64,000 nt of DNA from Luteimonas granuli (lineage in GTDB: Bacteria; Pseudomonadota; Gammaproteobacteria; Xanthomonadales; Xanthomonadaceae), in assembly GCF_007795095.1 (NCBI RefSeq), contig NZ_CP042218.1:124001-188000 (forward strand), read 5' to 3'. The translations under genes were made by a program, and so were the position numbers. Of the stretch, positions 35,181 through 56,875 are shown piece by piece; the stretch's first letter is position 1, and each line of letters opens with the position of its first letter. Under the pieces are notes generated by a model. The model had not been told where the DNA came from. It saw only the letters and a list, made by a program, of their open reading frames with translations, and did no database searches.

Positions 35181-35645
35181 GCTAAGCGGGGATCGGTTGT
35201 AGTCAGTTTCTACAAACGCTGGCCCATTACTAACTAGTTGCAAATCATCAACTTATGAATCATTTCTCATTAACAATATGAAATTTCGTGCGCACGTCAC
35301 GCGGATGGGTCACGAACTCGCGGCGTTTGCAATGATCGGCCATGGACTCTTGCCCGTCGTGGAGGAGAGCTTGGGCGTTGCCTTTTCTGCTGCGACCAAA
35401 CGTCAATCAACGCAGACTCGGGAGTCAGCGCTCAGCTCAGAGGCTCCCTGCAAGGCGATGTGAAGGGCCTCATCAAGATCGACGTCAGTCGGGAGTGGAA
35501 GTGACGATCCGTTCGCGCCGGCGGTCAGCTGGATGGCAGGGCTTATCGAGACCGCTACACCGTCCTCACCCAGCAAGACTGAAAATCCAATGAAGCTTGC
35601 CGTCGTCGTTGCGTAGGATTTGGCTTGTGGGCGTGGAGTCCCCCT
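35181..35645. other. AT-richer non-coding stretch, probable transposon terminal region
   Basis: Base composition changes sharply here; 35235-35285 is clearly AT-rich. TTGTAG (35197-35202) and CTACAA (35210-35215) form an inverted pair in a sequence starting TGTAGTCAGTTTCTACAAAC, which could be a TGT-type transposon terminus or a TnsB/TniA-like binding site. No second copy was found by eye. No convincing gene lies here; a short minus-strand frame at 35403-35590 is only weakly protein-like. Confidence 0.5.
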
Positions 35646-37493
35646 ATGGCCGATGCGAAGAATACTTCTGAAGCCCTTAAGGTGGCACGTCGGAGCGTGG
35701 CTTTGAGGGTGAAGAAAGGAGCCTTGGTCGTGTGCGATGGGCGCGCTGCGACGGTACTGGCTGTCGTCTCTGCGTCTCAACTTTGGATCAAGCATTTAGG
35801 TACGGAGGATCACCAGTGGGTCAGCCTTGAAGACCTGCGTCCGTACGTTGAGCAGCCTGCCCCAAAGTTGCTAGAAGTTGTCCAAGACGATGAAAGTGAT
35901 TTTGAGCGCGCAGTCGAATGGATGCGTGCTTTTGATCGCTACAAGGGCTGCTCGACTCTTACTCCGAGTGTCAAATCATCCATTGCGAAAGAAATGGAGG
36001 TTAGTCGCCGCACTGTTGAAAGACACTTCGATCTGTACCAGATCGACTCAACTGTCCGTGGTCAGCTTCCATGCAAACCGGGGCCAGAGAAGGGAAGCTC
36101 ATCGCTCACAAGAGTCCAGCTCGCAATCATCGACAATGCAATAGATGAGCGATATCGAGTCGAAGAGAGGGGGTCCGTTCAGGCCACCGCTGACTTGGCA
36201 GGAGCCAGGTGCGTGGCCGCGGGCGTAAAGGCACCCTGTTACAACACTGTACGGGCTCGCATCTCCGTGCTGGATCGCTGGATGATGGCACGAGATCGAC
36301 ACGGACGCGTCCGAGGCGACGCAAAGGCCGGCCCGGCTGGTCTTGGCATCGCAAACAAGAGCGAGATTAATCCGCTCGACTACGTGCAAATGGATCATGC
36401 AATCGTTGACGTAATCGTCGTTGATCCCGATACACGCGAAGAGATCGGCAGGCCATGGATTACTCTGGCGATTGATATCGCAACGCGCTGCATACTTGGC
36501 TTCTACTTGACCTTCGATGCCCCATCACAAGCCAGCGTCGCGCTCGCACTTGAACAATGTTGCCTGCCAAGAGATGCCTGGCTGAAAAGTCTCGGCGTCG
36601 CTGAGCCATGGCTGCCTTACGGTTTGATGAAGACCATTGGGTGGGACAATGCCAAGTGCTTCCGTAATACAAACTTGATAGCGGCGTGCCGAGGCCACGG
36701 TATCGAGCCTCGATTTCGTAAGGTGCGAAATCCGGTGCACGGTGCTCACATCGAGCGCGTAATCGGCACCTATATGGGCCGCGTCCACTTGCTCAAGGGC
36801 ACGACATTCTCGAACACCAAGGAGCGTGAGGACTACAAGAGCGGCGAGAACGCCATCATGACCTTACGAGAGCTCGAGCTCTGGACGATCCACGAGATCA
36901 ATGGCCGCTATCACAACACCGAGCATAGCGGGCTGGGATGTACTCCACTGGAAGCGTGGAAGGACGCGTGGACAGAGGATGACGGGATTCGGCTGCCACC
37001 AATTCCCGCCAACCGGCGCGACTTTCGACTCTCGCTCTTTCCGCGCGTCCAGCGCAGCGTAGGCCGCGAAGGCGTCCAGCGCTTTGCACTAAAGTACTGG
37101 GATGAGGGCTTGATCCCGCTGATTGGTTCCAAGAGCAAGTTCCCGGTTGCCCACGATCCCCGCGATATAAGCCGCGTCTATCTACTGGCCGGCACGACTT
37201 GGATCGACGTGCCTTGGCGTGACCGTACGCGTGCACCTATTGCATTGTGGGAGTGGGAGCGCGCCAAGCACGAAGTGCGCAGGAAACATAACCGGTCGGC
37301 CTGTAGCGCAGAAGCGTTCAAGCATATTGAAGCCCAGCGCGAGCTGGAGCGAGAAGCCGAGAGAACTACGAGAAAGCAGCGCCGAGACCGGCAACGACGT
37401 CCTGAGGATGATCGACCTAGGTCGCGTGCAACTAGCGTTGACTACGGAGTCGCGCCCACCTTGCTCTCCGATCCATTTTCGCAAAAGTCATGA
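35646..37493 (+). CDS. tniA: TniA/TnsB-type DDE transposase
   Basis: This 615-residue Mu/TnsB-superfamily transposase cuts and joins transposon ends. A helix-turn-helix (SSIAKEMEVSRRTVERHFDL) lies near residue 120. The catalytic triad is Asp250 in YVQMDHAIVD, Asp334 in IGWDNAKCF and Glu370 in HGAHIERVIG, so D334 and E370 have the classical 35-residue spacing. A Mu-type C-terminal barrel follows (EGVQRFALKYWDEGLIPLIG), then a basic Arg/Glu-rich tail that probably contacts TniB. The ATG at 35646 is preferred over an upstream TTG. It overlaps tniB as ATGA. Confidence 0.93.
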   Translation: MADAKNTSEALKVARRSVALRVKKGALVVCDGRAATVLAVVSASQLWIKHLGTEDHQWVSLEDLRPYVEQPAPKLLEVVQDDESDFERAVEWMRAFDRYKGCSTLTPSVKSSIAKEMEVSRRTVERHFDLYQIDSTVRGQLPCKPGPEKGSSSLTRVQLAIIDNAIDERYRVEERGSVQATADLAGARCVAAGVKAPCYNTVRARISVLDRWMMARDRHGRVRGDAKAGPAGLGIANKSEINPLDYVQMDHAIVDVIVVDPDTREEIGRPWITLAIDIATRCILGFYLTFDAPSQASVALALEQCCLPRDAWLKSLGVAEPWLPYGLMKTIGWDNAKCFRNTNLIAACRGHGIEPRFRKVRNPVHGAHIERVIGTYMGRVHLLKGTTFSNTKEREDYKSGENAIMTLRELELWTIHEINGRYHNTEHSGLGCTPLEAWKDAWTEDDGIRLPPIPANRRDFRLSLFPRVQRSVGREGVQRFALKYWDEGLIPLIGSKSKFPVAHDPRDISRVYLLAGTTWIDVPWRDRTRAPIALWEWERAKHEVRRKHNRSACSAEAFKHIEAQRELEREAERTTRKQRRDRQRRPEDDRPRSRATSVDYGVAPTLLSDPFSQKS

Positions 37494-38374
37494 CTGACAT
37501 CTCGGACGCGGCCATCGCACTGCTTACAGCCTCTATCGATCGCAAGGTCGACTGGATTCTGGCTGATTCCTGGGTGCACACCAATGCGACATCCGTCGCT
37601 TTCCAGTGGATGGCTTACATCCATCGCTGTGGACCGGTAATTCGCCCGCCATGTTTGCAGATCACCGCGGAAGGAGGCATGGGAAAAACTGCCATCCTCC
37701 TTTCCTACGCCAAATTGCACCCGGTCGAGAAGGATCCGGACGATCCGCTTCGGCTACAGCGGCCTGTGGCTTACGTCGAGTGTACGCCCGAAAACAGTGG
37801 CGCTCTCGGCGTGCGGCGAGCAATCTTGAAGGCTTGCTGGCCACTCGCAGAACGCCTTAATGGCGGAGAGGAGGAGGTGGACAGGACCCTTCGTGCGCAG
37901 GGTGTACGCGTACTCTTGCTCGATGAGTTTGGTGAGCTGACCAAGTCTGGGCCTGCCAGTCACCAGCGGGCACTGTCGGAACTTAAGCGGGTCAGCAATA
38001 CCGCGCGCATTGGGATCGTCGCGGCCACAGTCAGCAATCTTTCGCATGTTCTCGCCGTCGATCAACAGTTTGCCAGTCGATTCAGGCGCAAGATTGTGAT
38101 TGAACCGTGGTCGCTCTCAAACGACTTGCGCAACTTTGTCTATGGCTTGCAACGAAATCTCCCGTTTCCAAAGAGATCAACGCTAGATGATCATCGCTCT
38201 TTGCCGGAGATTGCGGAAAAAAGTGAAGGAAATACCAAAGAGATTGTTGAACTGGTTCGATTGGCTGCACTACACGCGCTCGGCGCTGGGGCAGACCACG
38301 TAACTTACGATCACTTGAGGTTGGCCATCCGCGACCCCGCACCCCCTGGTTTAGTACTTGAGAACGTCAAATGA
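37490..38374 (+). CDS. tniB: TniB/TnsC-type AAA+ transposition ATPase
   Basis: This 294-residue ATPase links target selection to the transposase. Walker A is TAEGGMGKTAILLSYAK near residue 60, Walker B is VRVLLLDEFGELTKSG near 140, sensor-1 is GIVAATVSNLSHVL, and the arginine region is ASRFRRKIVIEPW. It is coupled to tniA and to the next gene by 4-base overlaps. Confidence 0.9.
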   Translation: MTDISDAAIALLTASIDRKVDWILADSWVHTNATSVAFQWMAYIHRCGPVIRPPCLQITAEGGMGKTAILLSYAKLHPVEKDPDDPLRLQRPVAYVECTPENSGALGVRRAILKACWPLAERLNGGEEEVDRTLRAQGVRVLLLDEFGELTKSGPASHQRALSELKRVSNTARIGIVAATVSNLSHVLAVDQQFASRFRRKIVIEPWSLSNDLRNFVYGLQRNLPFPKRSTLDDHRSLPEIAEKSEGNTKEIVELVRLAALHALGAGADHVTYDHLRLAIRDPAPPGLVLENVK

Positions 38375-39084
38375 GCGTCGAGACCTGGGCGGGGCTTGGG
38401 TCGCATCGCGGTGCCGGTGAGTCACTGGCCTCTTGGTTGCGGGCTGGACCCTTGGGAGCACGAGCTTGCCCCGCTCGCGGGGCCCGCGGTCGGAGGGCAG
38501 ACTCGTTGTTCTGCCCTGCATGCTGGGTAGATGAGGCTGGCCGGCGCCGCTGGTACTCGCGGGAGGCGTGGTCAAACAACAGCGTTGTTTGCACGGTCCA
38601 CGGTTTGCCGTTGCTGTACTGTGACACTGTGCCGAAGCGAGTGCGCGGGCGGCGATGGTCACAATCCTTACGGGAGGAGTTCGATGCCTTGGCCAAGTGG
38701 GCTCCGCAGGATCATCTCCGAGCCGAAAGCGAAGCGATCACGCGCGCTATCTGCGCGCGCAGTGATCCGCGCGAAGCGTACTCGGCCGCCTGGTCGGAGG
38801 CGCAATGGTACTTATGGGCAGAGGGGTGGCCAGTTGCCGCCGCTCCGAAAATGCGCCTCCATGGCGTCCTCCATCCGATAGTCCAGTCTGATCGCTTGGC
38901 ACTGACGGCCATTGTCCGACGAATAGTAGTGAACCTGGAAACGGGTCGACACACAGGTTGGCCAGCCTTGCCGGTTCGCCCGCGCGTCTTGATATGGCTT
39001 CAGGCGCGAATTCAGCGCCTGCAGATTGACTGTCGAATGGGGGTAGCGGGGTGCTTTCGCGACGCCATGAGCAAGCGCGGATAG
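38371..39084 (+). CDS. Short TniQ-like zinc-finger protein
   Basis: This 237-residue protein starts with the TniQ-like GESLASWLRAG, then almost directly has a zinc-binding segment FCPACWVDEAGRRRWYSREA...CTVHGLPLLY (C-x2-C...C-x2-H). TniQ proteins usually have about 60-100 residues between these parts, so this one looks internally shortened. The C-terminal half is helical and unassigned. The 4-base overlap with tniB suggests it works in the same complex. Assignment to TniQ/TnsD rests on the motif order and operon. Confidence 0.7.
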   Translation: MSVETWAGLGSHRGAGESLASWLRAGPLGARACPARGARGRRADSLFCPACWVDEAGRRRWYSREAWSNNSVVCTVHGLPLLYCDTVPKRVRGRRWSQSLREEFDALAKWAPQDHLRAESEAITRAICARSDPREAYSAAWSEAQWYLWAEGWPVAAAPKMRLHGVLHPIVQSDRLALTAIVRRIVVNLETGRHTGWPALPVRPRVLIWLQARIQRLQIDCRMGVAGCFRDAMSKRG

Positions 39085-39093
39085 GTTTCGTTT

Positions 39094-40401
39094 ATGGCGC
39101 GATTGCATCTCACGGTTGATCGTACGCATAGGCAGGTTCCTGCGATTTCATATTTGCCTTTGCTGCCGGACGAAACTCTCTCGAGCTGGGTCAATCGCCA
39201 TCCCGGCACGTCGCTGCAGCGGCGCCCCTTTCAAGAAGAGAAAACCTTCGGGAAGCTCACGATCGATCTTCCCGACCTTCCTGGCGCCTTGTACGATGAG
39301 CTGCAGCGCGCAGCGCTACCACCCGATAAATGGGTCTTGCTGCCCCACCAGCGCACACTGTGCTGTCCGCGTTGCTTTGCTGAGGATTGGGCGCGGGGAA
39401 TGCCGCGTTATTTGCGTAGAGCGTGGTGCGTAAGCTGGCGAACCTGCTGTCCTCGCCACGGGCCATTTTTTGATACTGACAGAGGAGCGGTTCCTCCGGA
39501 GTGGGGCCACTTTCTGACCCGCCCGAGCTGGTCGGGACATGAAGCAACTATCCTGCACCTGCGACCACAGGGATGGTATTTTACGCTTGCACTTGGCGCG
39601 GACCAGCGGGCAATCCATCTAGAAGCGGCTCTGGCAGACGTACCCGGCGCCTGGCGCCCCGGAGGCTTGAGCGGAAAAAAACTAAGGGCGATCTATCGGC
39701 AAATTGTTTCGGACCTGCTCGCCCAATTCTTCTTAATTGGAGGGGGTTCGGAAGCACCTCCCCCTCACTCTAGCTTCAATAATGCTTTAAACGGCAATCG
39801 ATTCGCGATTAACGTGCTCGCCGAGGCAATCTTGTCCGAGTGGACCAATACCCCCCTGCCTGCGCCCACACTTGCTCGCCGGACGATGCTGTTGGTGCGG
39901 GCGATCGGCTGGGGTCTTTCCCGCCCGGCGAAGGCTCATCCGTCGCAGGTGCTGCTTCGTGGACCCAGTGATCGCTGCCGATCGCTGGTTCGCTATGCCG
40001 GGTTCCTAAGGCGCCTTGACTACGCTCGCGTTTCGGATCCGGAAGCTCCTAGGCTGATCGGTTACCTCACCGTTCCCGAGGCTCGTCTCCTCGGGATGTC
40101 TGGAAATACTGAGTTCAAGTTGGCCAGCATGGCCGTTGAGGGGCGTTTTTTGGCCTACCACGGCCGGAGCGGTCGGCTGGTGGAGAACCCCTTTCTGCCT
40201 GCCCAAGAGCGTGTGGGCCCGGGGGAATTTCCGGCGAACGTTCTCTTGCCTAAATGGGCGTATTGCCCGCCTCTTGATGAAGGCTGTATGTCGTCACCTC
40301 GATTCCTCGATTCGACTAGTAGTCAAAAGGCTCGCAGGCGGCGATGTCGCCGCGAGGAGCTGAGGAGCGTGCGACCTCCGCTCATTGGCGATGGTGATTA
40401 G
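39094..40401 (+). CDS. tniQ: TniQ-family target-selection protein
   Basis: This 435-residue protein has the TniQ opening YLPLLPDETLSSWVNRH near residue 20 and a zinc finger CCPRCFAEDWARGMPRYLRR...CCPRHGPFF (C-x2-C and C-x2-H) near residues 90-125. A long C-terminal region follows, with a duplicated-looking helical part and LLPKWAYCPPLDEGC at the end. TniQ/TnsD proteins recognise the insertion target. It starts 10 bases after the shorter TniQ-like gene. Having two such proteins recalls Tn7-like elements with TnsD plus TniQ. Confidence 0.85.
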   Translation: MARLHLTVDRTHRQVPAISYLPLLPDETLSSWVNRHPGTSLQRRPFQEEKTFGKLTIDLPDLPGALYDELQRAALPPDKWVLLPHQRTLCCPRCFAEDWARGMPRYLRRAWCVSWRTCCPRHGPFFDTDRGAVPPEWGHFLTRPSWSGHEATILHLRPQGWYFTLALGADQRAIHLEAALADVPGAWRPGGLSGKKLRAIYRQIVSDLLAQFFLIGGGSEAPPPHSSFNNALNGNRFAINVLAEAILSEWTNTPLPAPTLARRTMLLVRAIGWGLSRPAKAHPSQVLLRGPSDRCRSLVRYAGFLRRLDYARVSDPEAPRLIGYLTVPEARLLGMSGNTEFKLASMAVEGRFLAYHGRSGRLVENPFLPAQERVGPGEFPANVLLPKWAYCPPLDEGCMSSPRFLDSTSSQKARRRRCRREELRSVRPPLIGDGD

Positions 40402-40756
40402 GGCTGGTTATCAGGGGTAGGGTGGGGCGGCTCGGGTCTTTAAGTTCGTACCGCAAGGTGGGTCGGTCGCTGGCCGGAGGGGCTCCTCAAAGATCACACA
40501 AAAAGCAATAGGGTTCACCCAATGCATTGAGCCAAGTGATTCTGCTCGGCCAGCACTGGGTGGTGACGTTGACAAGCAGTCTCTGGCCGCATAGCGCCCG
40601 CAGGCACGCTCGAGCGTCGTCAGCTGGCGACTGGGGACTACGCAGCTCTAGCTGGACGGCCGGTCTCGGACCCATCGTCAGGTTTCCGAAATAGAAGAGG
40701 ACCGCGGAACTCCGCGGCCCTTCGCGTTCCGGCGTTGCCCAGATCTCGCTGGGCGG
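40402..40756. other. Intergenic stretch without a recognisable gene
   Basis: These 355 bases separate the TniQ gene and a convergent secreted-protein gene. Apart from a terminator-like hairpin at 40702-40717, no coding pattern was seen; a 62-codon minus-strand frame (40487-40675) lacks a start context. It might contain transposon-internal or degraded DNA. Confidence 0.5.
40702..40717 (-). terminator. Weak terminator of the duplicated-domain secreted protein gene
   Basis: CCGCGGA (40702-40708) pairs with TCCGCGG (40711-40717) across a 2-base loop. On the minus strand it is followed by TCCTCTTCTATTTC, which is pyrimidine-rich but not a clean T-run. It lies 40 bases after the stop at 40757. Confidence 0.4.
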
Positions 40757-41671
40757 CTAGCCGCCCAGCGGGACACGATCCGCATCGGCACTCCCGTCGA
40801 TGTCGAAGTCCCACTCAAGCACGTCGTAGGTTCGGGACCCGTAGCCAATCCAGTCGACAGTGAACGTGCCTGCCTCTCGCTGGATCGTTAAGCAGCCCTG
40901 CACCTTGCCGCCGCCTTTGTCGAAGGTGAACGCCATGCGGGCGGGTTCGACGCAGTTGGAAACCGGGAAGCGCAGCATGACGATCCGGGGCACGCCGTGG
41001 CGGCTATTCAAGATCAGGGCGGCATCAGAGAAAGTCGGGGAACCGGCGGGTTCTTGTGCCGCCGCCTCACGTTGCTCCTGCTCGGCCTGATCATGGTCGC
41101 TACCCGTGTTTCCAAGTTTCCAATCAGCCACTTCATAGGTCTTGGTTCCATTGCCGAACCAGTCCACCCTGAACGTGTTCGTCGCTGCTTGGAGGGTCCA
41201 ACAGCCACGGACGGTCTTGCCTTTGTCTTGCGTGAACGCCACACGCGCGGGGTCGGGGCAGTTGTAGACCGGGAACCGCATCACCAGGATTCGCGGCAGC
41301 CCATGTCGGCTGTTCAGGATCATTGCGGCCTCCCCGACGGTCGGGGGGCGAACACCGGCGGAATCGGGAACTACCAAGGTCTCTGTGTCCGCCGATCCAG
41401 CGGCAGTGGCGTACTCAACTGCCTGGACCACCTCTTGCTTCGCCTGGTTGGCTGCCCACCCGTCAATGTTGGCCTGCCGCTCGGCTTCGCGTGCTTCTTC
41501 TTCCTCGCGGCGCTCCTCGGAGGCCGCGCGGCGCTCGTCCCATGCCTGACGCATGGCGCGCCCCTTCCGGTAGTTCTCGGCGATGATGTCGCCCGTCGTG
41601 CGTTGCTGTGCGACCGCGTGGCTGCAGGCCGCCGCCCCAGCAAATACGAGGAGTGCGGTCGTCAGTTTCAT
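40757..41671 (-). CDS. Secreted protein with two copies of an unknown domain
   Basis: From the ATG at 41671 (ribosome-binding site AAAGGGG) the product is 304 residues with a signal peptide (MKLTTALLVFAGAAACSHAV, cleaved near AVA-QQ). A charged Glu/Arg-rich coiled coil (residues about 40-70) follows. Then come two similar units of about 70 residues: AAMILNSRHGLPRILVMRFP...GCWTLQ...FRVDWFGNGTKTYEVADW and AALILNSRHGVPRIVMLRFP...GCLTIQ...FTVDWIGYGSRTYDVLEW. Each has two cysteines (probable disulfide). I recognise no family. A lipobox is not clear. It is transcribed against its neighbours and may be cargo. Confidence 0.8.
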   Translation of the reverse strand: MKLTTALLVFAGAAACSHAVAQQRTTGDIIAENYRKGRAMRQAWDERRAASEERREEEEAREAERQANIDGWAANQAKQEVVQAVEYATAAGSADTETLVVPDSAGVRPPTVGEAAMILNSRHGLPRILVMRFPVYNCPDPARVAFTQDKGKTVRGCWTLQAATNTFRVDWFGNGTKTYEVADWKLGNTGSDHDQAEQEQREAAAQEPAGSPTFSDAALILNSRHGVPRIVMLRFPVSNCVEPARMAFTFDKGGGKVQGCLTIQREAGTFTVDWIGYGSRTYDVLEWDFDIDGSADADRVPLGG

Positions 41672-42027
41672 GTCATCCCCTTTCCCTGGCGCAAGTGCAG
41701 TCGATATTCGCATGCTGAAACGGCCCCGACCAGAAGCGGGTAGCCCCGCGCGATTACAGGCACGATTGGGCCGCTGCTGCGCGTGCTGACATCGCGCTCG
41801 GGTTGTGCGGCCATTGGGTGGCTGTCTCTTCCTCGGGAGATCTAATGGCTGCAGCTGGTCTCCGTCCCGCGCCCGACCCACGAAAAATAGCGAATCCGGC
41901 CTCGGCATCTGCGGCTGGAGCGAACCCACGGAAGCCCGACCAGCGGCGCCATGCCAAGCGAATCTCAGTCCAAGCGACCGCCTCGATTACAATTCGACTT
42001 CGAACCGGGCTGGGGGGCCCCCGTCGC
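41672..42027. other. Promoter region between the secreted protein gene and hsdM
   Basis: These 356 bases separate divergent genes. TACAAT at 41988-41993 is a good -10 candidate for hsdM, with no obvious -35. An open frame extends hsdM upstream to 41803 but lacks conserved sequence. Nothing else is recognised. Confidence 0.4.
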
Positions 42028-43875
42028 ATGAATCACTCCGCTCTATCGTCCTTCATCTGGTCGGTCGCCGACCTGCTTCGCGGCAACTACAAACCGCACG
42101 AGTACGGCCGCTTCATCCTGCCCTTCACCGTGCTGCGCCGGCTCGACTGCGTTCTGGCACCCACCAAGCACAAGGTGCTGGCCGAGCTCAAGAAGAAGAC
42201 CGACGCCGGGATCAACCCCGATCCGTTTCTGCGGCGCATCGTGGGCGAGGCTCGCTTCTACAACACCTCGCCGATGGACCTGTCAAAGCTGCTCGGCGAC
42301 CAGGATCACATCCGCCAGAACCTCTATCAGTACGTGCAGGGCTTCTCCCCGGAGGCGCGGGACATCTTCGAGCGCTTCGACTTCTACACGCAGGTCGAGC
42401 GGCTGGCCAAGGACAAGCTGCTGTACCTTGTCACCGAGAAGTTCGCCAACATCGACCTGCACCCGGACCGCGTGGACAACGCGCAGATGGGGCACGTGTT
42501 CGAGGAGCTGATCCGCAAGTTCGCCGAGCTGTCCAACGAAACCGCCGGTGAGCACTTCACGCCGCGCGAAGTCATCCGGCTGATGGTCAACCTGATCTTC
42601 ATCGAGGACGACGACGTGCTGACGCCCGGCAACCCCGTGGTGCGCACCATCTACGACCCGACGGCCGGCACCGGCGGCATGCTGTCGGTCGCCGCCGAGC
42701 ATCTGATCGAGCACAACCCGGCCGCGCGGCTGACGCTGTACGGGCAGGAACTCAACGACGAGTCCTACGCCATCTGCAAGGCCGACATGCTGATCCGCGG
42801 GCAGGACGTGGACAACATCGTGCCGGGCAACACGCTCAGCGAGGACGGCTTCGTCCACCGCAGGTTCGACTACATGCTGTCCAACCCGCCGTTCGGCGTG
42901 GAGTGGAAGAAGGTGCAGAAGGCCGTGCGCGACGAGCACGAGCAGAAGGGCTTCGACGGCCGCTTCGGCCCCGGCCTGCCGCGCGTGTCCGACGGCTCGA
43001 TGCTGTTCCTGCTGCACCTGGTCGCGAAGATGGCGCCGGTGATCAACGGCGAGGGCGGCAGCCGCTTCGGCATCGTGCTCAACGGCTCGCCTCTGTTCAC
43101 CGGCGGGGCGGGGAGTGGCGAGAGCGAGATCCGCCGCTACCTGCTGGAGAACGATCTGGTCGAGGCGATCATCGGCCTGCCGACCGACATGTTCTACAAC
43201 ACCGGCATCGCCACCTACGTGTGGATTGTCAGCAACAAGAAACCCGATGACCGCCGCGGGCAGGTGCAGCTGATCGACGCCAGCGGCTTCTGGCGCAAGA
43301 TGCGCAAGAGCCTGGGCAGCAAGCGCAAGGAGATGGGCGAGGACGACATCGCTACCGTCACCCGGCTGTTCGGCGACTTCACCGAGGCCGAGCGCGTCAC
43401 CGTGCTGGACGCCGACGGCCGCGAGGTGGAGCAGCGCATCGTCACCGCCACCGACAATCCGCCGGTGGCGCCCGAAGGCGGCAAGCTCAAGCGCGTGCCG
43501 ATCTCGCGCATCTTCGACAACGAGGCCTTCGGCTACACCACCATCACGGTCGAGCGGCCGCTGCGTGACGAGGCCGGCAACGTCGTCAAGTTCGAGAAGG
43601 GCAGGCAGAAGGGCCAGCCGCAGCCTGACAGCAGCCTGCGCGATACCGAGAACGTGCCGCTTGGCGAGGACATCCAGGCGTACTTCGAGCGTGCGGTGCT
43701 GCCGCATGCGCCGGATGCGTGGATCGACGAAGGCAAGACGAAGGTCGGTTACGAGATCCCGTTCAACCGCCACTTCTACGTGTTCGAGCCGCCGCGTCCG
43801 CTGGAGGAGATCGACGCCGAGCTGAAGCAGGTGGCCGGGAACATCACGCGGATGCTGGGGGAGTTGGCGGAATGA
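42028..43875 (+). CDS. hsdM: Type I restriction-modification methyltransferase subunit HsdM
   Basis: HsdM methylates adenine in the site chosen by HsdS. The 615-residue product begins MNHSALSSFIWSVADLLRGN, with the N-terminal HsdM helical domain. The SAM-binding motif is DPTAGTGGMLSVAAEHLI near residue 210, and the catalytic motif is NPPFGVEW near 285. The GLPTDMFYNTGIATYVWIV segment is also typical. The extended C-terminal part (residues 430-615) is longer than in short HsdM proteins. Its stop overlaps hsdS as ATGA. Confidence 0.95.
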   Translation: MNHSALSSFIWSVADLLRGNYKPHEYGRFILPFTVLRRLDCVLAPTKHKVLAELKKKTDAGINPDPFLRRIVGEARFYNTSPMDLSKLLGDQDHIRQNLYQYVQGFSPEARDIFERFDFYTQVERLAKDKLLYLVTEKFANIDLHPDRVDNAQMGHVFEELIRKFAELSNETAGEHFTPREVIRLMVNLIFIEDDDVLTPGNPVVRTIYDPTAGTGGMLSVAAEHLIEHNPAARLTLYGQELNDESYAICKADMLIRGQDVDNIVPGNTLSEDGFVHRRFDYMLSNPPFGVEWKKVQKAVRDEHEQKGFDGRFGPGLPRVSDGSMLFLLHLVAKMAPVINGEGGSRFGIVLNGSPLFTGGAGSGESEIRRYLLENDLVEAIIGLPTDMFYNTGIATYVWIVSNKKPDDRRGQVQLIDASGFWRKMRKSLGSKRKEMGEDDIATVTRLFGDFTEAERVTVLDADGREVEQRIVTATDNPPVAPEGGKLKRVPISRIFDNEAFGYTTITVERPLRDEAGNVVKFEKGRQKGQPQPDSSLRDTENVPLGEDIQAYFERAVLPHAPDAWIDEGKTKVGYEIPFNRHFYVFEPPRPLEEIDAELKQVAGNITRMLGELAE

Positions 43876-45209
43876 GTCTGCCGGCGTATCCGGAGTACAG
43901 GGTTAGCGACATCGATTGGGTAGAGATGCTGCCCGCGCACTGGGATGTGGCTAATCTCAAGTGGGTCTGTCGGCGATACTCGGGTGGAACCCCCGACAAG
44001 AATCGGCTCGAATTCTGGGAGGACGGAACGGTTCCTTGGCTGAACTCCGGAGCGGTCAACGACGGCTGCATCTATGAACCGACGACCTACATCACGCGGG
44101 AGGCATTGGAGAGCAGCAGCGCAAAGTGGATCCCGGCAGGTGCAATTCTGATGGCGCTTGCGGGGCAGGGCAAGACAAAGGGCATGGTCGCCCAGCTGAT
44201 GTTCGAATCGACCTGCAACCAATCGATGGCCGCAATTGTGCCAGCCGGGCGAGTGCAAGCGAGATACTTGTACTGGTGGCTTGCGAATAATTACCAGAAC
44301 ATTCGGAATATGGCTGGTGGCGATCTTCGCGACGGCCTCAATCTTGACCTGCTGGGCGAGATTCCATGTCCACTTCCGAGCTGTGATGAGCAAGCCGCTA
44401 TCGCCGTCTTCCTTGACCGCGAAGCCGCCAAGATCGACGCGCTGATCGCCGAGCAGGAAAAGCTGCTGGCGCTGCTGGCCGACAAACGCCAGTCCACCAT
44501 CTCCCACGCCGTCACCCGCGGGATCGACCCCAATGCCCCAATGAAGGACTCCGGCATCCCGTGGCTGGGCGAGGTGCCGGCGCATTGGACGCTAGGCGGG
44601 CTAACGAAGTTCATTGGGCCGATTGTTGATTATCGTGGGCGGACACCGGACAAAGGTGACAAAGGCATGTTCCTGGTGACGGCAAAAAATGTCCGCGACG
44701 GCATTATCGACTACGAAGCATCCCAAGAATATGTTGACCCGAACGAAGCTGCTGCGCTGCTGTCGCGGGGTATGCCTGAGGTGGGCGATGTGCTTTTCAC
44801 GACCGAGGCGCCACTAGGTCAGGTTGCACAGATAGATAGAACGGACATCGCGCTGGCTCAGCGTATTGTTAAGTTTCGAGGTGCGCCGAACGTCATGACC
44901 AACGAATACTTGATGTATTGGCTGATGAGCAAGCCATGTCAGTCGCGACTCGCGAGTCTTGCAACCGGTTCTACGGCTCTGGGAATCAAGGCGAGCAAAC
45001 TCGGCATGATTGAATGCCTCGTTCCTACTGTTTCGGAACAGCAGGCCATCGTTGACTTCATTCGCGCGGAATTAAGACGATTCGATGCTTTGCGGGATGA
45101 GGCTCAGCGAGCTGTCGAACTATTTAAGGAGCGCCGTAGCGCCCTCGTCGCCGCCGCCGTCACCGGCCAAGTCGACGTGCGCGGCGCAGTGGAGTCGCAG
45201 GCCGCATGA
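43872..45209 (+). CDS. hsdS: Type I restriction specificity subunit HsdS
   Basis: This 445-residue protein has two target-recognition domains (residues about 20-170 and 225-385), each followed by a coiled-coil spacer. The first is PCPLPSCDEQAAIAVFLDRE with KIDALIAEQEKLLALLADKR. The second is LVPTVSEQQAIVDFIRAE with RSALVAAAVTGQVDVRG. The lower GC of the recognition domains (for example around 44230-44340 and 44600-45000) is typical of swapped specificity modules. It overlaps the next gene by 4 bases. Confidence 0.94.
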   Translation: MSLPAYPEYRVSDIDWVEMLPAHWDVANLKWVCRRYSGGTPDKNRLEFWEDGTVPWLNSGAVNDGCIYEPTTYITREALESSSAKWIPAGAILMALAGQGKTKGMVAQLMFESTCNQSMAAIVPAGRVQARYLYWWLANNYQNIRNMAGGDLRDGLNLDLLGEIPCPLPSCDEQAAIAVFLDREAAKIDALIAEQEKLLALLADKRQSTISHAVTRGIDPNAPMKDSGIPWLGEVPAHWTLGGLTKFIGPIVDYRGRTPDKGDKGMFLVTAKNVRDGIIDYEASQEYVDPNEAAALLSRGMPEVGDVLFTTEAPLGQVAQIDRTDIALAQRIVKFRGAPNVMTNEYLMYWLMSKPCQSRLASLATGSTALGIKASKLGMIECLVPTVSEQQAIVDFIRAELRRFDALRDEAQRAVELFKERRSALVAAAVTGQVDVRGAVESQAA

Positions 45210-45964
45210 CCGACCCCTGGCTCCGCGATGTCCCCGCGGTGTTCCGCGCACTGGCGGATCCCCGGCTGGAAAGCGCGATCCCGCGGCCGATGACGGGGCC
45301 GCTCGAACAGGCTTGCGCCCACTGGAGCGCGCTGCACTACACGCTGTCCAGCCTGCTGGGCTGGGCCAGCGTCGGCCGCGGCTTGGCGTGGTGGTACGCC
45401 GCCGGCAAGCCGGTTGACGATTCACCCGTGCTGGCACTGGTGCAGCGGGTGTGGGGCGGCGATGACCTCATCGACTATTACGCCGCGTGGTCGTGGTTGC
45501 CGCCGCGTGTCGGCTACGAGTTGCCGCAATCCGCCGTGATCGACGGCGGCCCGTCGCCCACGTGGCTCGCCCGGCATTCGCGTTGGCCGGACGAGGACTG
45601 GTGGCGCAGCTTCGTCCGACGCGGGCAGGTCCACCACCACGACCCGTTCTACGGCGGCAGCGATCCGCTGCACCTGTCCATCCACCACGGCCCACCCACG
45701 ACCGAGCCGTCGGAAAACCCGCTGGTTCACCTGATCCCGGAGCAGCGCCGCGCCGTGCTGGTCACGGGAGGGCTGGACCACTGGCTGGCCGACCTGCACG
45801 CGCTCGACGCGCGCCTGCCGCCCATCGGTGACCGCTCATGGCGGGTCGAGGTGTTTGATCGCCGCACCGGTTACCTGGGTGTATACCGCCGCAGCCGCGT
45901 CACCGGCCGCTGGTTCACCGGCAGGCACGCCATCCACATGCGCGGCCACGACGCGCACGACTGA
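45206..45964 (+). CDS. Unknown protein inside the type I restriction operon
   Basis: This 252-residue protein, MTDPWLRDVPAVFRALADPR..., is rich in Trp, His, Asp and Pro (WSWLPPRVGYELPQ, RGQVHHHDPFYGGSDPLHLS, HLIPEQRRAVLVTGGLDHWL). It has no signal or membrane segment. I do not recognise a family. It overlaps hsdS by 4 bases and precedes the GIY-YIG gene by 15, so it is expressed with the restriction system. The HHH-D cluster could bind metal (speculative). Confidence 0.8.
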   Translation: MTDPWLRDVPAVFRALADPRLESAIPRPMTGPLEQACAHWSALHYTLSSLLGWASVGRGLAWWYAAGKPVDDSPVLALVQRVWGGDDLIDYYAAWSWLPPRVGYELPQSAVIDGGPSPTWLARHSRWPDEDWWRSFVRRGQVHHHDPFYGGSDPLHLSIHHGPPTTEPSENPLVHLIPEQRRAVLVTGGLDHWLADLHALDARLPPIGDRSWRVEVFDRRTGYLGVYRRSRVTGRWFTGRHAIHMRGHDAHD

Positions 45965-45979
45965 CCGCAGGGAACGCTC

Positions 45980-46843
45980 ATGCCCCATCCGCAGACCATC
46001 CAGATCTTCCTCCCCGCTGGCGATCCGCAGGGCATCCGCATCGCCGAGATCACCACCCGCATCGTCCGCGTCATCGAGGTGCCGCGCAGCTTGCTGGGCG
46101 ACTTCCTCAAGATGCCGGAGGCCGAGCAGGTCGGCGTGTACTTCCTGTTTGGCGAGGACGAGGACGGCGGTGCCCCTCGCTGCTACATCGGCCAGACCGG
46201 CTCGCTCAAGACCCGCCTGTCCCAGCACAACGCCGCCAAGGACTTCTGGAACCGCGCGCTGATCGCGGTGTCGCTGACCAACAGCCTGACCAATACCCAT
46301 GCGAGCTACCTGGAATGGCTGTCGATCCAGAAGGCGCAGTCGGCCGGGCGCTACGTGATGGACAACGGCAATGCCGGGGGCCGCCCCTATACCCCTGCCC
46401 CGATGGAAGCCGACTGCAGTGAGATACACGCCACCGTGCGCACGCTGCTGGCCACGTTGGGCTTCCCGGTGTTCGAGCCGCTGGCGCGCGCGGAGGTTGT
46501 ACAGCGAGGTGACGAGGTTTTCGTCTGTCGTGCCTCGGATGCGGATGCGAAGGGTCTCTATACAGAAGAAGGGTTCGTGGTGTTGGCTGGGTCAAGTGGC
46601 CGTCTGGCAACCGTGCCCTCGTTCCAGAACCACGGCTACCACCGGGTGCGTCAACAGCTGCTCGAGCAGGGCGTGCTGGTCGTCGAGGGCGACCGCATGC
46701 GCTTTACCCGTGACCATCTATTCGGGTCCCCAAGCGGCGCGGCCGCATGCGTGACGGGACGCACCGCGAATGGCTGGGTCGAGTGGAAGGACGGGAGCGG
46801 TCGCACACTCGGTGAGAGGAAAGCCGGTGTGTCAGAGGCATGA
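45980..46843 (+). CDS. GIY-YIG nuclease with C-terminal DUF4357
   Basis: This 287-residue protein has a GIY-YIG fold: VGVYFLFGEDEDGGAPRCYI then GQTGSLKTRLSQH (GVY and YIG tyrosines, Arg in KTRL), with the catalytic Glu likely in SYLEWLSIQ. The C-terminal half (DEVFVCRASDADAKGLYTEE onward, FVVLAGSSGR, FGSPSGAAACVTGRTANGWV) is DUF4357. This architecture recurs in defence and restriction contexts. It overlaps the HNH gene by 4 bases. The substrate is unknown. Confidence 0.88.
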   Translation: MPHPQTIQIFLPAGDPQGIRIAEITTRIVRVIEVPRSLLGDFLKMPEAEQVGVYFLFGEDEDGGAPRCYIGQTGSLKTRLSQHNAAKDFWNRALIAVSLTNSLTNTHASYLEWLSIQKAQSAGRYVMDNGNAGGRPYTPAPMEADCSEIHATVRTLLATLGFPVFEPLARAEVVQRGDEVFVCRASDADAKGLYTEEGFVVLAGSSGRLATVPSFQNHGYHRVRQQLLEQGVLVVEGDRMRFTRDHLFGSPSGAAACVTGRTANGWVEWKDGSGRTLGERKAGVSEA

Positions 46844-47676
46844 AGCAGACAGGCCCCATGCCGTTGGCGCAACTGGTTGCGGAAGAGTTCGGCGTCCCGC
46901 TGGACAACGTCATGCTGCTCCGACACTCCGCTGAGAGCGTCAAGAAGCTATTGGCGGCGGGTGGCACCGTGGAGGACTACACGTACACACAGCCGACGGA
47001 ATCCGCCTACGACTACCTCCATCCGCTCAAGACGCCCGTCGAGCTTGTGGCGGTGATCGTTCGGGATCATCTCTACGGGGTCTTCAAGGTTCTGGGCGTG
47101 GAACGCGAAGGCACGACGTATTCCCTAACGTCTGAGGCGCATCAGCGGTTTGACATGGCGCGAGGCAAGCCCCCGCGACCAGCAAAGCGCTTCTCGATGC
47201 AGCCGATGCAAACCGCATACGCTGGCCTGCCAGTGCATGGCTGGGAGGGTCGGAGCAGGACTGCCGTCCAACGATCTGATGGTTCCTTCTTCCTGGAGAT
47301 TGCGGTTGCTCCGCGGGTTGATCCGGAGGATTCCAGCACCCTCCAGCAGCAGCTCAACCAGCGACTGCAGGCGGCCTTGTCTGATACACCTGCGCGGCGG
47401 AGAGAGCGCCTTGCGCTTGCACCGAAACTCCCTCGCATCGTGACCGTCACAACTTCGGCTTTCGTCAGGAACGCAGATGTGATTGCGGAAGTGCTGTTGC
47501 GTGCCGGTGGCAAATGCGAGAGCTGCCTTTCGCCTGCGCCGTTCTTCCGCAGAAAGGACCAGAGTCCATATCTTGAGGTCCACCACAAGGTGCGACTCGC
47601 GGATGAGGGCGAAGACACAGTCGCCAATGCAATCGCGCTGTGCCCTAACTGTCACCGGCGCGAGCATTACGCCTAG
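46840..47676 (+). CDS. HNH endonuclease-domain protein
   Basis: In this 278-residue protein the last about 60 residues form a zinc-bound HNH nuclease: CESCLSPAPF, YLEVHHKVRLADEGED and ALCPNCHRREHY (paired Cys and catalytic His-His). The N-terminal about 200 residues (LVAEEFGVPLDNVMLLRHSA; EDYTYTQPTESAYDYLHP) are unassigned and may sense or bind a target. It is coupled to the GIY-YIG gene by a 4-base overlap and precedes hsdR by 40 bases. Confidence 0.87.
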   Translation: MKQTGPMPLAQLVAEEFGVPLDNVMLLRHSAESVKKLLAAGGTVEDYTYTQPTESAYDYLHPLKTPVELVAVIVRDHLYGVFKVLGVEREGTTYSLTSEAHQRFDMARGKPPRPAKRFSMQPMQTAYAGLPVHGWEGRSRTAVQRSDGSFFLEIAVAPRVDPEDSSTLQQQLNQRLQAALSDTPARRRERLALAPKLPRIVTVTTSAFVRNADVIAEVLLRAGGKCESCLSPAPFFRRKDQSPYLEVHHKVRLADEGEDTVANAIALCPNCHRREHYA

Positions 47677-47716
47677 CACTCACTATAGTGCCGTGGAAGC
47701 GGCAGTCGGGGGACGC

Positions 47717-50700
47717 ATGAACCTGCACCAGGAACACCACTTCGAGCGTGAGATCTGCGCGCACCTTGCGGCCAATGGTTGGATCCACGCCGAGAGGGAC
47801 GCGGCCCAGTACGACCGCCAGCACGGGTTGTTCCTGCCCGACTTGCTGGCATGGATCGAGTCGACCCAGACCGACAGTTGGCAGAGACTGCTGAAAACCC
47901 ACGGCCAGCATCTGGGCGAGCGGCTGGCCGACCGCGTCCGCAAGAATCTCGACGAGCGCGGCACACTGGACGTGCTGCGCCGCGGGGTGGAGATGCTAGG
48001 GCTCAAGCAGCCGCTGTCGCTGGCGCAGTTCAAGCCTTCGCTGGCGATGAACCCGGTGACCCAACAACACTACGCCGCCAACCGGCTGCGGGTCGTACAG
48101 CAGGTCAAGCACTCGCCCAATCGGCCCAACGACTGCCTGGACCTGGTGCTGTTCGTCAACGGCATCGCGGTGGCGACGGCGGAATTAAAGTCGGACTTCA
48201 CCCAGAGCGTCGGCGACGCGGTGGACCAGTACCGTCTGGACCGGCACCCGCACCCCAAGGGCGGGCTGCGCGAGCCGTTGCTGGCGTTCCCGGGCGGTGC
48301 GCTGGTGCACTTCGCGGTCAGCCAGACCGAGGTGATGATGGCCACGCGGCTGGCCGGGGAGGCCACGCGCTTCCTGCCGTTCAACCGCGGCAATGCGGGG
48401 GGCGCCGGCAATGCGCCGGACCCGGCGGGCTTCGCCACCCGCTACCTGTGGGAGGACGTCTGGGCGCGCGACAGCTGGCTGGAGATCCTCGGCCGCTACC
48501 TGATCGGCAAGCGCGATGAGAAAAAGCAACTGCAGGCGGTGATCTTCCCGCGTTACCACCAGTTGGATGCCACCCGGAAGCTGGTGGCCGACGTGCACGA
48601 GCAGGGCGCCGGCCAGCGTTACCTGATCCAGCATTCGGCCGGGTCGGGCAAGACCAACTCCATCGCGTGGACGGCGCACTTCCTCGCCGACCTGCACCGC
48701 GACAACAAGAAGGTGTTCGACAGCGTGCTGGTGGTGTCCGACCGCAACGTGCTGGACAGCCAGTTGCAGGAGGCGATCTTCGACTTCGAGCGCACCACCG
48801 GGGTGGTGGCCACCATCACCAGCGACAGCGGCAGCAAGAGCGCGCAACTGGGGCAGGCGCTGAAGGACGGCAAGAAGATCATCGTCTGCACCATCCAGAC
48901 GTTCCCCCTTCGCGCTGCAGGCGGTGCAGGAGCTGGCCGCGACCGAGGGCAAGCGCTTCGCGGTGATTGCGGACGAGGCGCACAGCTCGCAGACCGGGCA
49001 GGCGGCGGCCAAGCTCAAGCAGTTGCTGAGCCCGCAGGAATGGGCGGAGCTGCAGGACGGCGGCGAGATCGACACCGAGGCGTTGCTGGCCGCGCAGATG
49101 GGCGCGCGCAGCGCCGAGTCCGGCCTGACCTACATCGCCTTCACCGCTACGCCCAAGGGCAAGACGCTGGAACTGTTCGGCCGTCCCGACCCGGATGGGC
49201 TGCCGCAGCCGTTCCACGTGTATTCGATGCGGCAGGCTATCGAGGAGGGCTTCATCCTCGACGTGCTGCGTAACTACACCCCCTACGACCTGGCGTTCCG
49301 CCTTGCGCACGATGGCAAAGAGATCGACCACACCCAGGTTGAGCGCAGCACCGCGATGAAGGGGATCATGCAGTGGGTCCGCCTGCACCCGTACAACATC
49401 GCCGCCAAGGTGCAGATCGTGGTTGAGCACTACCGCGAAAACGTGCAGCCGCTGCTGGATGGCAGGGCGAAGGCGATGGTGGTGGTGTCGTCCCGGCAGG
49501 AAGCGGTGCGCTGGCAGAAGGCCATCCGCGCCTACATCGAAAGCCGCGACTACCCGTTGGGCGTGCTCGTGGCGTTCTCGGGCGAGGTGAATGACCCGGC
49601 GAGCTACCCGGAGCCGGTCACCGAGACCAGCAAGCTGCTCAACCCCGGCCTGAAGAACCGTGACATCCGCGAGGCCTTTGCGCAGCCGGAGTTCCATCTG
49701 TTGCTGGTGGCCAACAAATTCCAGACCGGCTTCGACCAGCCGCTGCTGTGCGGCATGTACGTGGACAAGAAGCTGGGCGGCATCCAGGCGGTGCAGACAC
49801 TGTCGCGCCTCAACCGCGCATACCCGGGCAAGGACACCACCTACGTGCTGGACTTCGTCAACGAGGCCGGCGAGGTGCTCAAGGCCTTCAAGACGTACTA
49901 CGAGACCGCCGAGCTGGAAGCGACCACCGACCCGAACCTGATCTTCGACCTGCGCGCCAAACTCGATGCTTCCGGGCACTACGACGACTTCGAGGTGGAG
50001 CGTCTGGCCAAGGTCGAGATGGACCCGCGTGCGACGCAGGCGCAACTGGTCGCCGCGATCCATCCTGTCGCCGACCGGCTGCTGAAGCGCTACAAGGCGT
50101 TGCAGCAGGCTCGCGCGGCGGCAATCGAAGCGGATGATGGCAAGGCGGAAAAGACAGCCAAGGACGAGCTGGACACGCTGCTCCTGTTCAAGGGCGACAT
50201 GGCGTCGTTCAACCGCCTGTACTCCTTCCTGTCGCAGATGTTCGACTACGGCAACACTGCCATCGAGAAGCGCTTCATGTTCTATCTGCGCCTGCTGCCG
50301 TTGCTGGAGTTCGGACGCGAGCGCGACACAGTGGACCTGTCAAAGGTCGTGCTGACCCATCACACCCTGCGCAGTGGGGGAAGCAGCCACTCAACCTCCA
50401 TGCCGACGGCACCTACAAGCTGCCGCCGCTGGATGCGGTGGGGAGTGGCCGGGTTCAGGACAAGCAGCAGGCCTACCTCGCCGAAATCATCGAGAAGGTC
50501 AACGGTCTATTCGAGGGGCAACTGACGGATGACGACCAGCTGGTCTACGTCAACGGCGTGCTCAAGGGAAAGCTGCTGGAGAACGAAACCCTCATCCAGC
50601 AGGCGGCGGGCAACAGCAAGGAGCAATTCGCAAACTCGCCGGACCTCAAACAGGCGCTGATGAACGCAATCATGGATGCGCTGGAGGCGCACAACACCAT

Positions 50701-50821
50701 GAGCAGCCAGGCACTGGCCTCGGAGCGGGTGCGCGATGGATTGAAGGACATCTTGATGGGGCCCGCACAACTGTACGAGGCCCTTCGTGCGCAGGGGGAG
50801 GGTCTGCGCGCCAATGGCTGA
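47717..50821 (+). pseudogene. hsdR: Type I restriction endonuclease subunit HsdR, two compensating frameshifts
   Basis: HsdR is the ATP-driven translocase and nuclease. The nuclease core contains VATAELKSDFTQ near residue 155. Walker A is HSAGSGKTNSIAW near 305, the DEAD-type box is VIADEAHSSQTG, the helicase motifs are TYIAFTATPKGKTLE and GGIQAVQTLSRLNRAYPG, and the C-terminal helices follow to 50821. The frame shifts at the C5 run 48904-48908 (one base too many; intact reading TFPFALQAVQELAATEG). It shifts again at the G5 run 50376-50380 (one too few; LRSGGKQPLNLHADGTYKL). Corrected, it is 1034 residues, a normal HsdR. Both lie in homopolymers, so sequencing error is likely. Confidence 0.9.
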
Positions 50822-51141
50822 GGTTGCTGGAGCTCTTAGACCTAAAGTTACGTCGATTCGGGATGTTTATCGGGGGTAGGCAAAGGCTCTCTCGTCGCCT
50901 CCAACAGCATGAGACACAAGCAGCTCTAAGCGTTGGCAACCTTCCAGCCACCGGTGGTTCCTACCTCGGCGTGAAAGAGGTCAGTTCCGCAAGCAGCTCA
51001 ACAGACACGACAGATTCCACCTTTAATCGCCAAGGGTGGAGGACAGGGTAGGCGAGGGCCGGCCGAAAGGTCCCGCCTTTCGCTTGGCTGTCCGGATAGG
51101 GCTATGATCAGTGAGATAAGTCAGCACAGGGGAGGGGCGCA
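50822..51141. other. Intergenic region between hsdR and the AAA ATPase gene
   Basis: This region has 320 bases with no credible gene. A hairpin CGAAAGG-TCCCG-CCTTTCG lies at 51064-51082, and TATGAT at 51103-51108 is a -10 candidate for the ATPase gene. GGGGAGGGG just before 51142 is its ribosome-binding site. Confidence 0.45.
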
Positions 51142-53382: not shown

Positions 53383-53563
53383 TGCAGACCACTTCTAGTG
53401 AAGCGTCCTGGTGCTGGACTCCGCCCTTCGTGCGCACCGGCGAAGCTGCCCGGTCCAATCGAGCCGACACGCTCGCATTGAGCAGTATCCTCAACAACAC
53501 TCACTTCATCGACTAGCCGTAATGGAAATGTCCCTTCAGTCTTCAAGCAGTCGAGCAGCGGGG

Positions 53564-54205: not shown

Positions 54206-54225
54206 CGGGCCGAAAGTGAGCTAAC
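54190..54225 (+). other. Possible Tn3-family-like terminal inverted repeat
   Basis: GGGATTCGTGTAAAAACGGG followed by CCGAAAGTGAGCTAAC starts with GGG, has an A-rich middle and ends near the merR stop. It sits exactly where the integrase homology ends. This is the layout of 36-38-base Tn3-family termini in mercury transposons. No partner repeat was found in the window, so the call is tentative. Confidence 0.35.
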
Positions 54226-54646: not shown

Positions 54647-54649
54647 GGC

Positions 54650-54681: not shown

Positions 54682-54687
54682 GCTCTG

Positions 54688-55044: not shown

Positions 55045-55052
55045 GAGGCGCG

Positions 55053-56839: not shown

Positions 56840-56875
56840 TTCCCCACCGGAGCCGACCCTTGGGGCGTGTCGTGG

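Follow-up and report, generated by a model that had tools for sequence, protein, structure and literature searches.

A Tni-type operon encoding two TniQ-like proteins in Luteimonas granuli, probably part of a large transposon inserted beside chromosomal dif

Bacterial chromosomes are separated at cell division at a site termed dif. Transposons of the Tn5053/Tn402 type have the layout tniABQ-res-tniR, and Tn402 carries a cargo-collecting integron at its far end. Tn5053 and Tn402 are res-site hunters, their target being a site-specific recombination site (parts of PMC11406308), and the IS1202-family dif hunters ISAba71 and ISAjo2 lie beside dif or pdif at fixed spacing with 5-bp duplications (parts of PMC10132070). 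Among Tn7-like elements, Tn6022 and Tsy (TnsF) pair a short TniQ with a selector of tyrosine-recombinase origin, and tandem tniQ/tnsD loci number 1,048 versus 2,905 single ones (parts of PMC10293859). In the TnpS-rst-TnpT module of Tn4651/TnXax1, a tyrosine recombinase is divergent from its helper, with a recombination palindrome between them (parts of PMC7157771). Two TniQ genes in one Tn7-like locus are already known; the surprise in the locus described here is its genomic context.

The window is a 64,000-nucleotide stretch of the L. granuli genome (G000), which we compared with relatives (G251, G105, G197, G029 and others), including a Lysobacterales MAG (L017) and Dyella (L018). The genes tniA, tniB, q1 and q2 form one operon (Table 1), joined by ATGA overlaps at the tniA/tniB and tniB/q1 junctions and a 9-bp gap between q1 and q2, just as an earlier note had described a coupled tniA-tniB followed by TniQ-like genes of 237 and 435 residues. 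A TTG at 35625 is a possible alternative start for tniA, whose rve domain scores under the Pfam cut-off, and a genome scan based on tniA returned 2 loci. No TnsA was seen beside the operon, the ORFs between the left end and tniA all being of 130 aa or less. The reported absence of a CRISPR array holds at 34-52 kb of the window, and no Rfam family matched within its 64 kb.

How firmly can q1 and q2 be assigned to the TniQ proteins? The suggested profile searches gave a divided answer: q2 scores 23.2 bits against PF06527 (cut-off 27; 26.7 for G105 q2 and 28.2 for the G251 ortholog), and q1 has no match in Pfam, nor does any of 11 q1-type proteins match PF06527 at E 0.01, whereas a profile of these 11 members aligns with that of q2 (hhalign 94%, E=1.5e-7). 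An N-terminal ES..SW motif and a CxxC..CxxH finger stand in register with a TniQ and are invariant among the 11 relatives (E17, S21 and W22; C48, C51, C74 and H77). We call q1 TniQ-like. It misses a stretch of about 35-45 residues ('EPERP...LGD') present in longer q1-type relatives, in agreement with the earlier remark that most of the region before the zinc finger is lacking. G251 (57% identity for q1, 54% for q2) and L017 each carry intact copies of q1 and q2, and q1 is therefore no fragment; it is neither unlike TniQ nor degraded in all relatives. In Dyella, q1 is kept as the sole remaining TniQ, with no apparent q2 and a broken tniB. Sequence searches against solved structures gave nothing beyond weak TnsD matches for q2 and weak unrelated chains for q1. 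Two predicted q1 structures were poor (pLDDT 44) and middling (63.5), and fold searches with them, which listed no TniQ or TnsD, are accordingly little informative. Relatives of q1 were found neither in a viral scan nor on plasmids.

The element that contains the operon spans 62,783 bp, with the operon at one of its ends. Similarity to chromosomal relatives breaks off at about 35190, and ends similar to the left terminus occur in G251 and L017. The corresponding elements measure 44,182 bp in G251 (duplication CTCTA/CTCTA) and 71,328 bp in G180 (GGTGC/GGTGC). Searching for inverted repeats alone yielded nothing; the ends emerged once dif had been spotted and dif-side ends were compared, and a first guess for the left end, TGTAGTCAG... 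at 35198, was superseded by AGTCAG at 35201. An exact 5-bp duplication together with identity at no fewer than 5 of the first 6 and 8 of 12 terminal bases, a criterion set after G000 and G251 had been seen, was found in 5/11 true island pairs versus 5/110 mismatched pairs (p=0.0005). With a wider search window the figures are 5/11 versus 11/110 (p=0.006), and for identity alone 5/11 versus 14/110. Ends are convincing in G113 and G287, which lack a clean duplication (CCTGC/CTCGT and CTTGC/CGTGC, respectively); G197 has a duplication and unlike ends, and no ends were settled on for G029, G147, G006, G129, G021, G208 and G232. For the conserved end repeats, probable TniA-binding sites, a search at the right end gave no good inverted copy. 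No clean empty site was found in G316, where the terminus is rearranged, or in G232, G276 and G208.

Beyond the right end lies the only dif match of G000, at a distance of 27 bp (25 bp in G251); the nine mapped ends fall 25-34 bp from dif. A search of 22 genomes returned one dif match in 17, two in 2 and none in 3, with 0 in the reversed control. Wherever dif and the tni operon share a contig (16 genomes), dif lies 0.5-14 kb past the island's other landmark, be it recombinase, first site or tniB. The landing spot is common to several distantly related elements of the Tni kind. It is shared by dual-TniQ elements (G000, G251, G105) and by elements with a single q1-type protein (G197, G029); q2 is therefore not needed for the dif location. 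The L017 element adjoins zipA, which is 80-500 kb from dif in relatives with both located; because the contig stops short of the element's other end, this placement is only a hint.

From tni to dif, the element consists of cargo modules split by 25-bp sites, followed by a tyrosine recombinase and, divergent from it, a KfrA-like gene. The site has 3 copies in the G000 genome (reversed control, 0). Module 1 further contains a profile-less ORF before HsdM, lipoprotein-like by eye, and an unassigned ORF between HsdS and GIY-YIG. Of 14 islands whose contig carries a listed site, 13 have all their listed between-landmark sites between tni and the recombinase; G208 departs from the order. We considered and dropped two further readings, the 25-bp site as a transposon end and the tni operon as a cassette with sites on both sides.

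Table 1. Features of the element and its surroundings, in window coordinates (values above 64000 lie beyond the window)
Feature	Coordinates	Strand	Evidence or remark
Left 5-bp target duplication GTTGT	35196-35200		Identical GTTGT after right end, G000:C1:221984-221988 (window 97984-97988)
Element, part inside window	35201-64000		Continues to 97983
Left terminal sequence AGTCAGTTTCTAC...	35201-35228	+	8/12 bases shared with right terminus AGTCAGTGTTCT
Pair of GGTCACGAAC-type end repeats, 30-bp spacing	35308-35354	+	Same pair and spacing in G251 and L017
tniA, DDE transposase	35646-37493	+	Pfam Mu-transpos_C 2e-8; 74% identity to G251 copy
tniB, AAA ATPase	37490-38374	+	PF05621 E=3.8e-27
q1, short TniQ-like protein, 237 aa	38371-39084	+	11-relative alignment and profile match to q2
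q2, long TniQ-like protein, 435 aa	39094-40401	+	PF06527 1.2e-4, under cut-off
25-bp site 1 GATTAGGGNNNKTTATCGNGGGTAG	40396-40420	+	1 mismatch; overlaps q2 stop codon
Cargo module 1	40757-50821		HsdM, HsdS, GIY-YIG (PDC-S14), HNH, HsdR by Pfam and PADLOC
25-bp site 2	50855-50879	+	1 mismatch to site pattern
Cargo module 2, in-window part	51142-64000		AAA_13/PDC-S06 gene in pieces, recombinase fragment, merR, metal-transport genes
25-bp site 3	87635
Tyrosine recombinase	95312-96391	-	Dif end of element
dif	98016-98036		Only dif match in G000

Like Tn5053/Tn402, the element has TniA, TniB and TniQ with no TnsA visible beside the operon, 5-bp target duplications (G000, G251, G180), a recombination-type site directly after its tniQ genes and, comparable to the integron of Tn402, a putatively cargo-collecting recombinase at the far end. 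It differs in using chromosomal dif instead of a plasmid res, in having a tyrosine recombinase and KfrA-like gene at its far end, apparently in place of the serine resolvase TniR, and in sometimes encoding two TniQ proteins. Integrons are marked by an IntI with an extra domain and by attI and attC sites. The recombinase of our element matches XerC/XerD-type models only, far under cut-offs, and its divergence from a partner gene recalls the gene layout of TnpS-TnpT. The near-fixed spacing from dif and the 5-bp duplication are shared with the IS1202 family, whose members are 1.5-kb insertion sequences that encode a single large transposase, lie at 5 bp from the XerC arm and have neither TniB/TniQ nor cargo, in contrast to a 62.8-kb element with tniABQQ. 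A short TniQ is also found in Tn6022/Tsy, yet Tn6022 has tnsA and tnsF and targets comM, and no such gene was recognised beside our operon. Tandem TniQ genes are likewise a trait of dual tniQ/tnsD Tn7-like loci; the dual cases described in parts of PMC11406308, however, use glmS, tRNA or parE sites plus CRISPR, and none is at dif.

From the operon, the conserved end repeats, the matching ends with duplications in several islands, the position at dif and the order of tni, sites and recombinase, all of them sequence features, we consider it probable that the operon mobilises a large TniA/TniB/TniQ transposon as its transposition module, and that this transposon enters the chromosome some 25-34 bp away from dif, generating a 5-bp duplication; a Tn402/Tn5053-like Tni lineage inserting beside dif is our best reading. 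We envision that TniQ would direct TniA and TniB to dif, perhaps through recognition of XerC/XerD bound there. The q1-type protein may be the core targeting subunit, with q2 adding a second target or stabilising the complex. The tyrosine recombinase and the 25-bp sites might resolve cointegrates (site 1 sits where Tn5053 has res) and might also allow module accretion.

Might the two TniQ proteins instead serve two pathways, with a TnsD-like q2 acting on dif and q1 as an adaptor for a second selector encoded elsewhere? Two pathways are indeed used by many CRISPR-associated Tn7-like elements that have two TniQ proteins (parts of PMC11406308), and q2 is the longer protein, but G197 and G029 sit at dif with a q1-type protein and no q2, and no second selector gene was recognised beside the operon, which makes this arrangement unlikely. 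Of the earlier Tn7-like interpretation, the operon (strictly TniA/TniB) with two different TniQ-type proteins conserved together has stood; two targeting modes or an adaptor role are hypothetical: single-TniQ elements occupy the same dif, q2 may act in a second pathway, and no second target was seen. We find it quite unlikely that integrase-mobilised elements built the island as a tandem array at 25-bp sites and that the tni operon is no more than a passenger picked up at the far end. Site arrays and recombinase are indeed common without strong TniB loci (E below 1e-20), occurring in 95 and 83 of 297 genomes versus 39, but the mappable outer boundaries are transposon-type ends and not 25-bp sites, and about 4 kb upstream of tniA at 15 loci contained no 25-bp site and no half-site better than shuffled sequence.

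Placement at dif by Xer-mediated (IMEX-like) integration, independently of Tni, would leave dif-type sites at both island ends. The location itself and a second dif-like match in G105 and G129 (2 mismatches, 2-3 kb from the first) would fit such an event, which is nevertheless very improbable, as 14/16 genomes have a single dif match outside the mapped transposon ends and no second dif-type site lies at the far end in G000 and G251. That q1 is a decaying TniQ remnant, as its shortened N-terminal part and missing Pfam match might imply, is extremely improbable, since it is intact in three relatives (57, 56 and 31% identity) and is the only TniQ left in Dyella.

Returning to a Tni lineage at dif, it is conceivable, if rather doubtful in this full form, that the lineage hunts Xer-occupied dif, its short TniQ using host XerC/XerD as an in-trans selector; that the second TniQ widens the target range, for instance to dif or res sites on plasmids; and that the tyrosine recombinase and 25-bp sites resolve cointegrates and collect defence and metal-resistance modules. 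If true, the use of XerC/XerD would be a possible evolutionary starting point for TnsF-like selectors, and the whole would be an integron-carrying transposon reinvented from other parts. Literature on TniQ or tniA and the dif site, within a coverage that leaves out preprints and most subscription journals, showed no connection of these to dif in the parts consulted, and sampled papers on Tn7-like elements and dif had Tn7-like in their references only. For short TniQ proteins without an obvious partner, target choice is an open question (discussion of PMC10293859, in part). A Tni lineage with a fixed dif address makes that choice directly testable, with host XerC and XerD as candidate selectors, and elements with one or with two TniQ proteins at a shared target offer a natural comparison. 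In this family, the terminus-linked platform accumulates modules for restriction, candidate defence and metal resistance.

The best explanation of these islands, and probably the right one, is a Tni-type transposon that inserts with a 5-bp duplication roughly 25-34 bp from dif, the XerC/XerD chromosome-resolution site. Our confidence is lowered slightly because three islands were counted for tni position without an informative site. Near-relative comparison gave sharp boundaries: TGTCACAG... stands beside four unlike flanks (in G278, G180, G147 and G246, genomes of the same family sample), and ...ACCGACA bounds the island in G113, G262 and G287. A clean duplication was not found at the G113 or G287 ends, and G276 holds a decayed copy.

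Mapped element ends and their distance from dif (G000, Luteimonas granuli; other handles, genomes of the same family sample)
Element	Ends and target repeats	Position or length	Distance from dif
G000	GTTGT-AGTCAGTTTCT ... AGAACACTGACT-GTTGT	159201-221983	27 bp (from dif core)
G251	CTCTA-ACTCAG ... CTGACT-CTCTA	3827957-3872138	25 bp
G180	GGTGC repeats	71,328 bp	34 bp
G197	ACCGC repeats, ends unlike		31 bp
G242	ATGCA repeats, TGTCG-type ends		25 bp
G105	CATCC repeats, TGTCG-type ends		27 bp
G113	5 bp allowed for duplication		25 bp
G287	5 bp allowed for duplication		29 bp
G276	5 bp allowed for duplication		31 bp

As a control, each dif-side end was paired with the tni-side ends of other genomes. 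The strictest combined end rule, picked with G000 and G251 already in view, passed 5 of 11 true vs 5 of 110 mismatched pairs (p=0.0005); 11 mismatched pairs passed it with a wider search window (p=0.006), and 14 passed on identity alone. The mapped ends gain separate support from a conserved block of ~40 bp at the dif-side end, common to G000 and G251, and from repeats with 30-bp spacing that three elements carry at their tni-side ends.

Scanning 1.12 Mb of DNA found dif beside these islands and zero matches to the reversed pattern; the far ends of the G287 and G113 islands adjoin a dif site. Among 22 whole genomes, at up to two mismatches, dif matched once in 17, twice in G105 and G129, and not in G152, G262 or G278. 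The earlier note had proposed a search for homologous elements and their insertion sites; 16 of the genomes carry dif on the same contig as the tni operon. There, dif lies 1.2-14 kb past the recombinase in 14 genomes (at most 5.5 kb in 13), and 2.7 kb from the first 25-bp site (G232) or 0.5 kb from tniB (G276) in the remaining two. No tni was seen in G316, which has dif; in G283 and G284 the dif match (poor in G284) sits on a different contig from tni, and the G242 and G029 islands occupy the opposite side of dif from most. The same second dif-like sequence, with two mismatches, occurs 2-3 kb from dif at G105:C1:2149040 and G129:C1:525223, and is possibly a Xer-bounded module.

The four genes that the earlier note had placed here, tniA, tniB and those for a short (q1) and a long (q2) TniQ-like protein, were found as ORFs at the same positions. 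On its Pfam match (PF05621, 4e-27) TniB is certain; TniA has good support (Mu-transpos_C, 2e-8). The proposed profile check against TniQ families gave a weak match for q2 (Pfam, 1.2e-4, under the cut-off; the G251 ortholog is over it) and none for q1 in Pfam or NCBIfam, nor for ten q1 relatives in Pfam. Despite this, we call q1 TniQ-like on the strength of a profile comparison: 11 q1-type proteins, as one profile, align with five q2-type proteins, as another, over the zinc finger and the N-terminal ES..SW motif (hhalign 94%, E=1.5e-7). When q1 and q2 were compared directly by BLASTP, no significant similarity appeared. The suggestion that the short protein lacks a region before its finger held up on alignment of relatives: the stretch 'EPERP...LGD' is present in q1-type proteins of G197, G284, G029, G242, G105 and G232 and absent from the compact form common to four loci, those of the window, G251, L017 (a Lysobacterales MAG) and Dyella tabacisoli (L018).

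Tandem TniQ loci are common, section 8 of PMC10293859 counting 1,048 tandem vs 2,905 single. The window and G251 operons are 74% (tniA), 73% (tniB), 57% (q1) and 54% (q2) identical, and Dyella has q1 only and a broken tniB. Our TniB sample comprised, among the matches listed for 297 family genomes, 45 loci at E <1e-20 in 39 genomes; weaker matches, mostly other AAA proteins, were left out. Layouts covered 43 loci besides G000 and G251, seven of them inspected in full (G232, G105, G284, G029, G152, G197, G242). A second TniQ-type gene was recognised in the loci of G000, G251, G232, G105, G242 and, outside the sample, L017, although a TniQ lacking the expected cysteines could have escaped the motif-based calls made on the layouts; both genes are q1-type in G242, and the G232 q1 frame has 180 aa only. 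Of the 43 layout loci, 42 (truncated G175 excluded) went together with G000, G251 and L017 into a 45-row TniB tree, for which the program flagged long branches. There all six group within a single ten-row clade (support 100/98), with dif known at the island in eight rows and the site only in two.

The 25-bp pattern was first noticed after q2 in G000 (-5 bp from the stop, which it overlaps) and G251 (102 bp, a poor copy) and after the operon in Dyella (132 bp). It occurs at up to two mismatches in at least 95 of the 297 genomes, with zero reversed-pattern matches among those listed. All three G000 copies are forward (window coordinates 40396, 50855 and 87635, the last, G000:C1:211635, lying past the window's end); clustered copies mostly share one orientation, with exceptions. 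Five of the seven fully inspected operons (G232, G105, G284, G029, G152) have a site (up to three mismatches) no more than 400 bp past their last tniQ; G197 has only a 5-mismatch site, and that of G242 is ~1 kb away. The far end of the G000 island holds a tyrosine recombinase (PF00589) whose gene diverges from that of a KfrA_N protein (PF11740); at E 1e-20 the recombinase occurs in 83 of the 297 genomes. In seventeen islands tni and a recombinase share a contig (a distant recombinase in G232). Among the matches listed, 14 also have a site there, between the two in 13 (exception G208), and G180, G006 and G129 have none. The tni operon is reversed in G113 and G287. The site array with its KfrA-linked recombinase at one end separates cargo modules and also occurs without strong TniB. 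A 204-aa fragment of a second recombinase copy (window 53564-54178, minus strand; 77% identical to that of G278) lies between sites. An integrase carried by Xanthomonas campestris plasmids (NZ_CP101171.1 19903-20979; also other Xanthomonas plasmids) shares 89% identity with the array recombinase, which points to a possible transfer route.

The cargo includes a GIY-YIG and DUF4357 protein within the hsd cluster (window 45980-46843; it matches the candidate defence family PDC-S14 strongly) and, adjoining the type I restriction system, an AAA_13/PDC-S06 candidate defence gene split over several frames (51142-53382; weak PrrC match). ORF 40757-41929 contains a 128-nt direct repeat (74%; 40913-41040 and 41219-41346), an internal domain duplication. 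Between left end and tniA, G251 (3828025-3828831, minus) and L017 (9161-9841, minus) carry a divergent ORF, 'MPRRRVPTRI...', with no Pfam match and not seen in the window element. The G251 element also holds, between two 25-bp sites, a type II secretion-like set assigned from translations alone (G251:C1:3837484 onward, L009/L010), whose second gene recurs at 92% identity in G113 and G155, and, right after its tni operon, a tRNA-Ile with the rare anticodon TAT (L009:14552-14644).

How might such an element move? TniA/TniB without nearby TnsA suggests replicative transposition, which would require a resolvase. Tn5053 has its res and tniR after tniQ. In these islands tniQ is followed by a recombination-like site, with a tyrosine recombinase on the far side of the cargo; from this arrangement we envision that the pair resolves cointegrates and that modules accrete through the same sites. 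PMC11406308, and the title of a paper it cites (reference 32), describe Tn5053 elements as seeking resolvase-bound res sites, and PMC10132070 describes dif as the target sought by IS1202 elements; a TniQ sensing Xer-bound dif would unite both ideas. In literature searches that did not extend to preprints or to most subscription journals, we found no paper linking dif to elements with TniQ or TniA. Since q1-only relatives are located at dif, q1-type proteins appear to suffice for this address, and q2 must presumably do something else or additional. Because TniB clades carrying other TniQ types (G113, G180, G129) are also located at dif, its use is either ancient or has evolved more than once.
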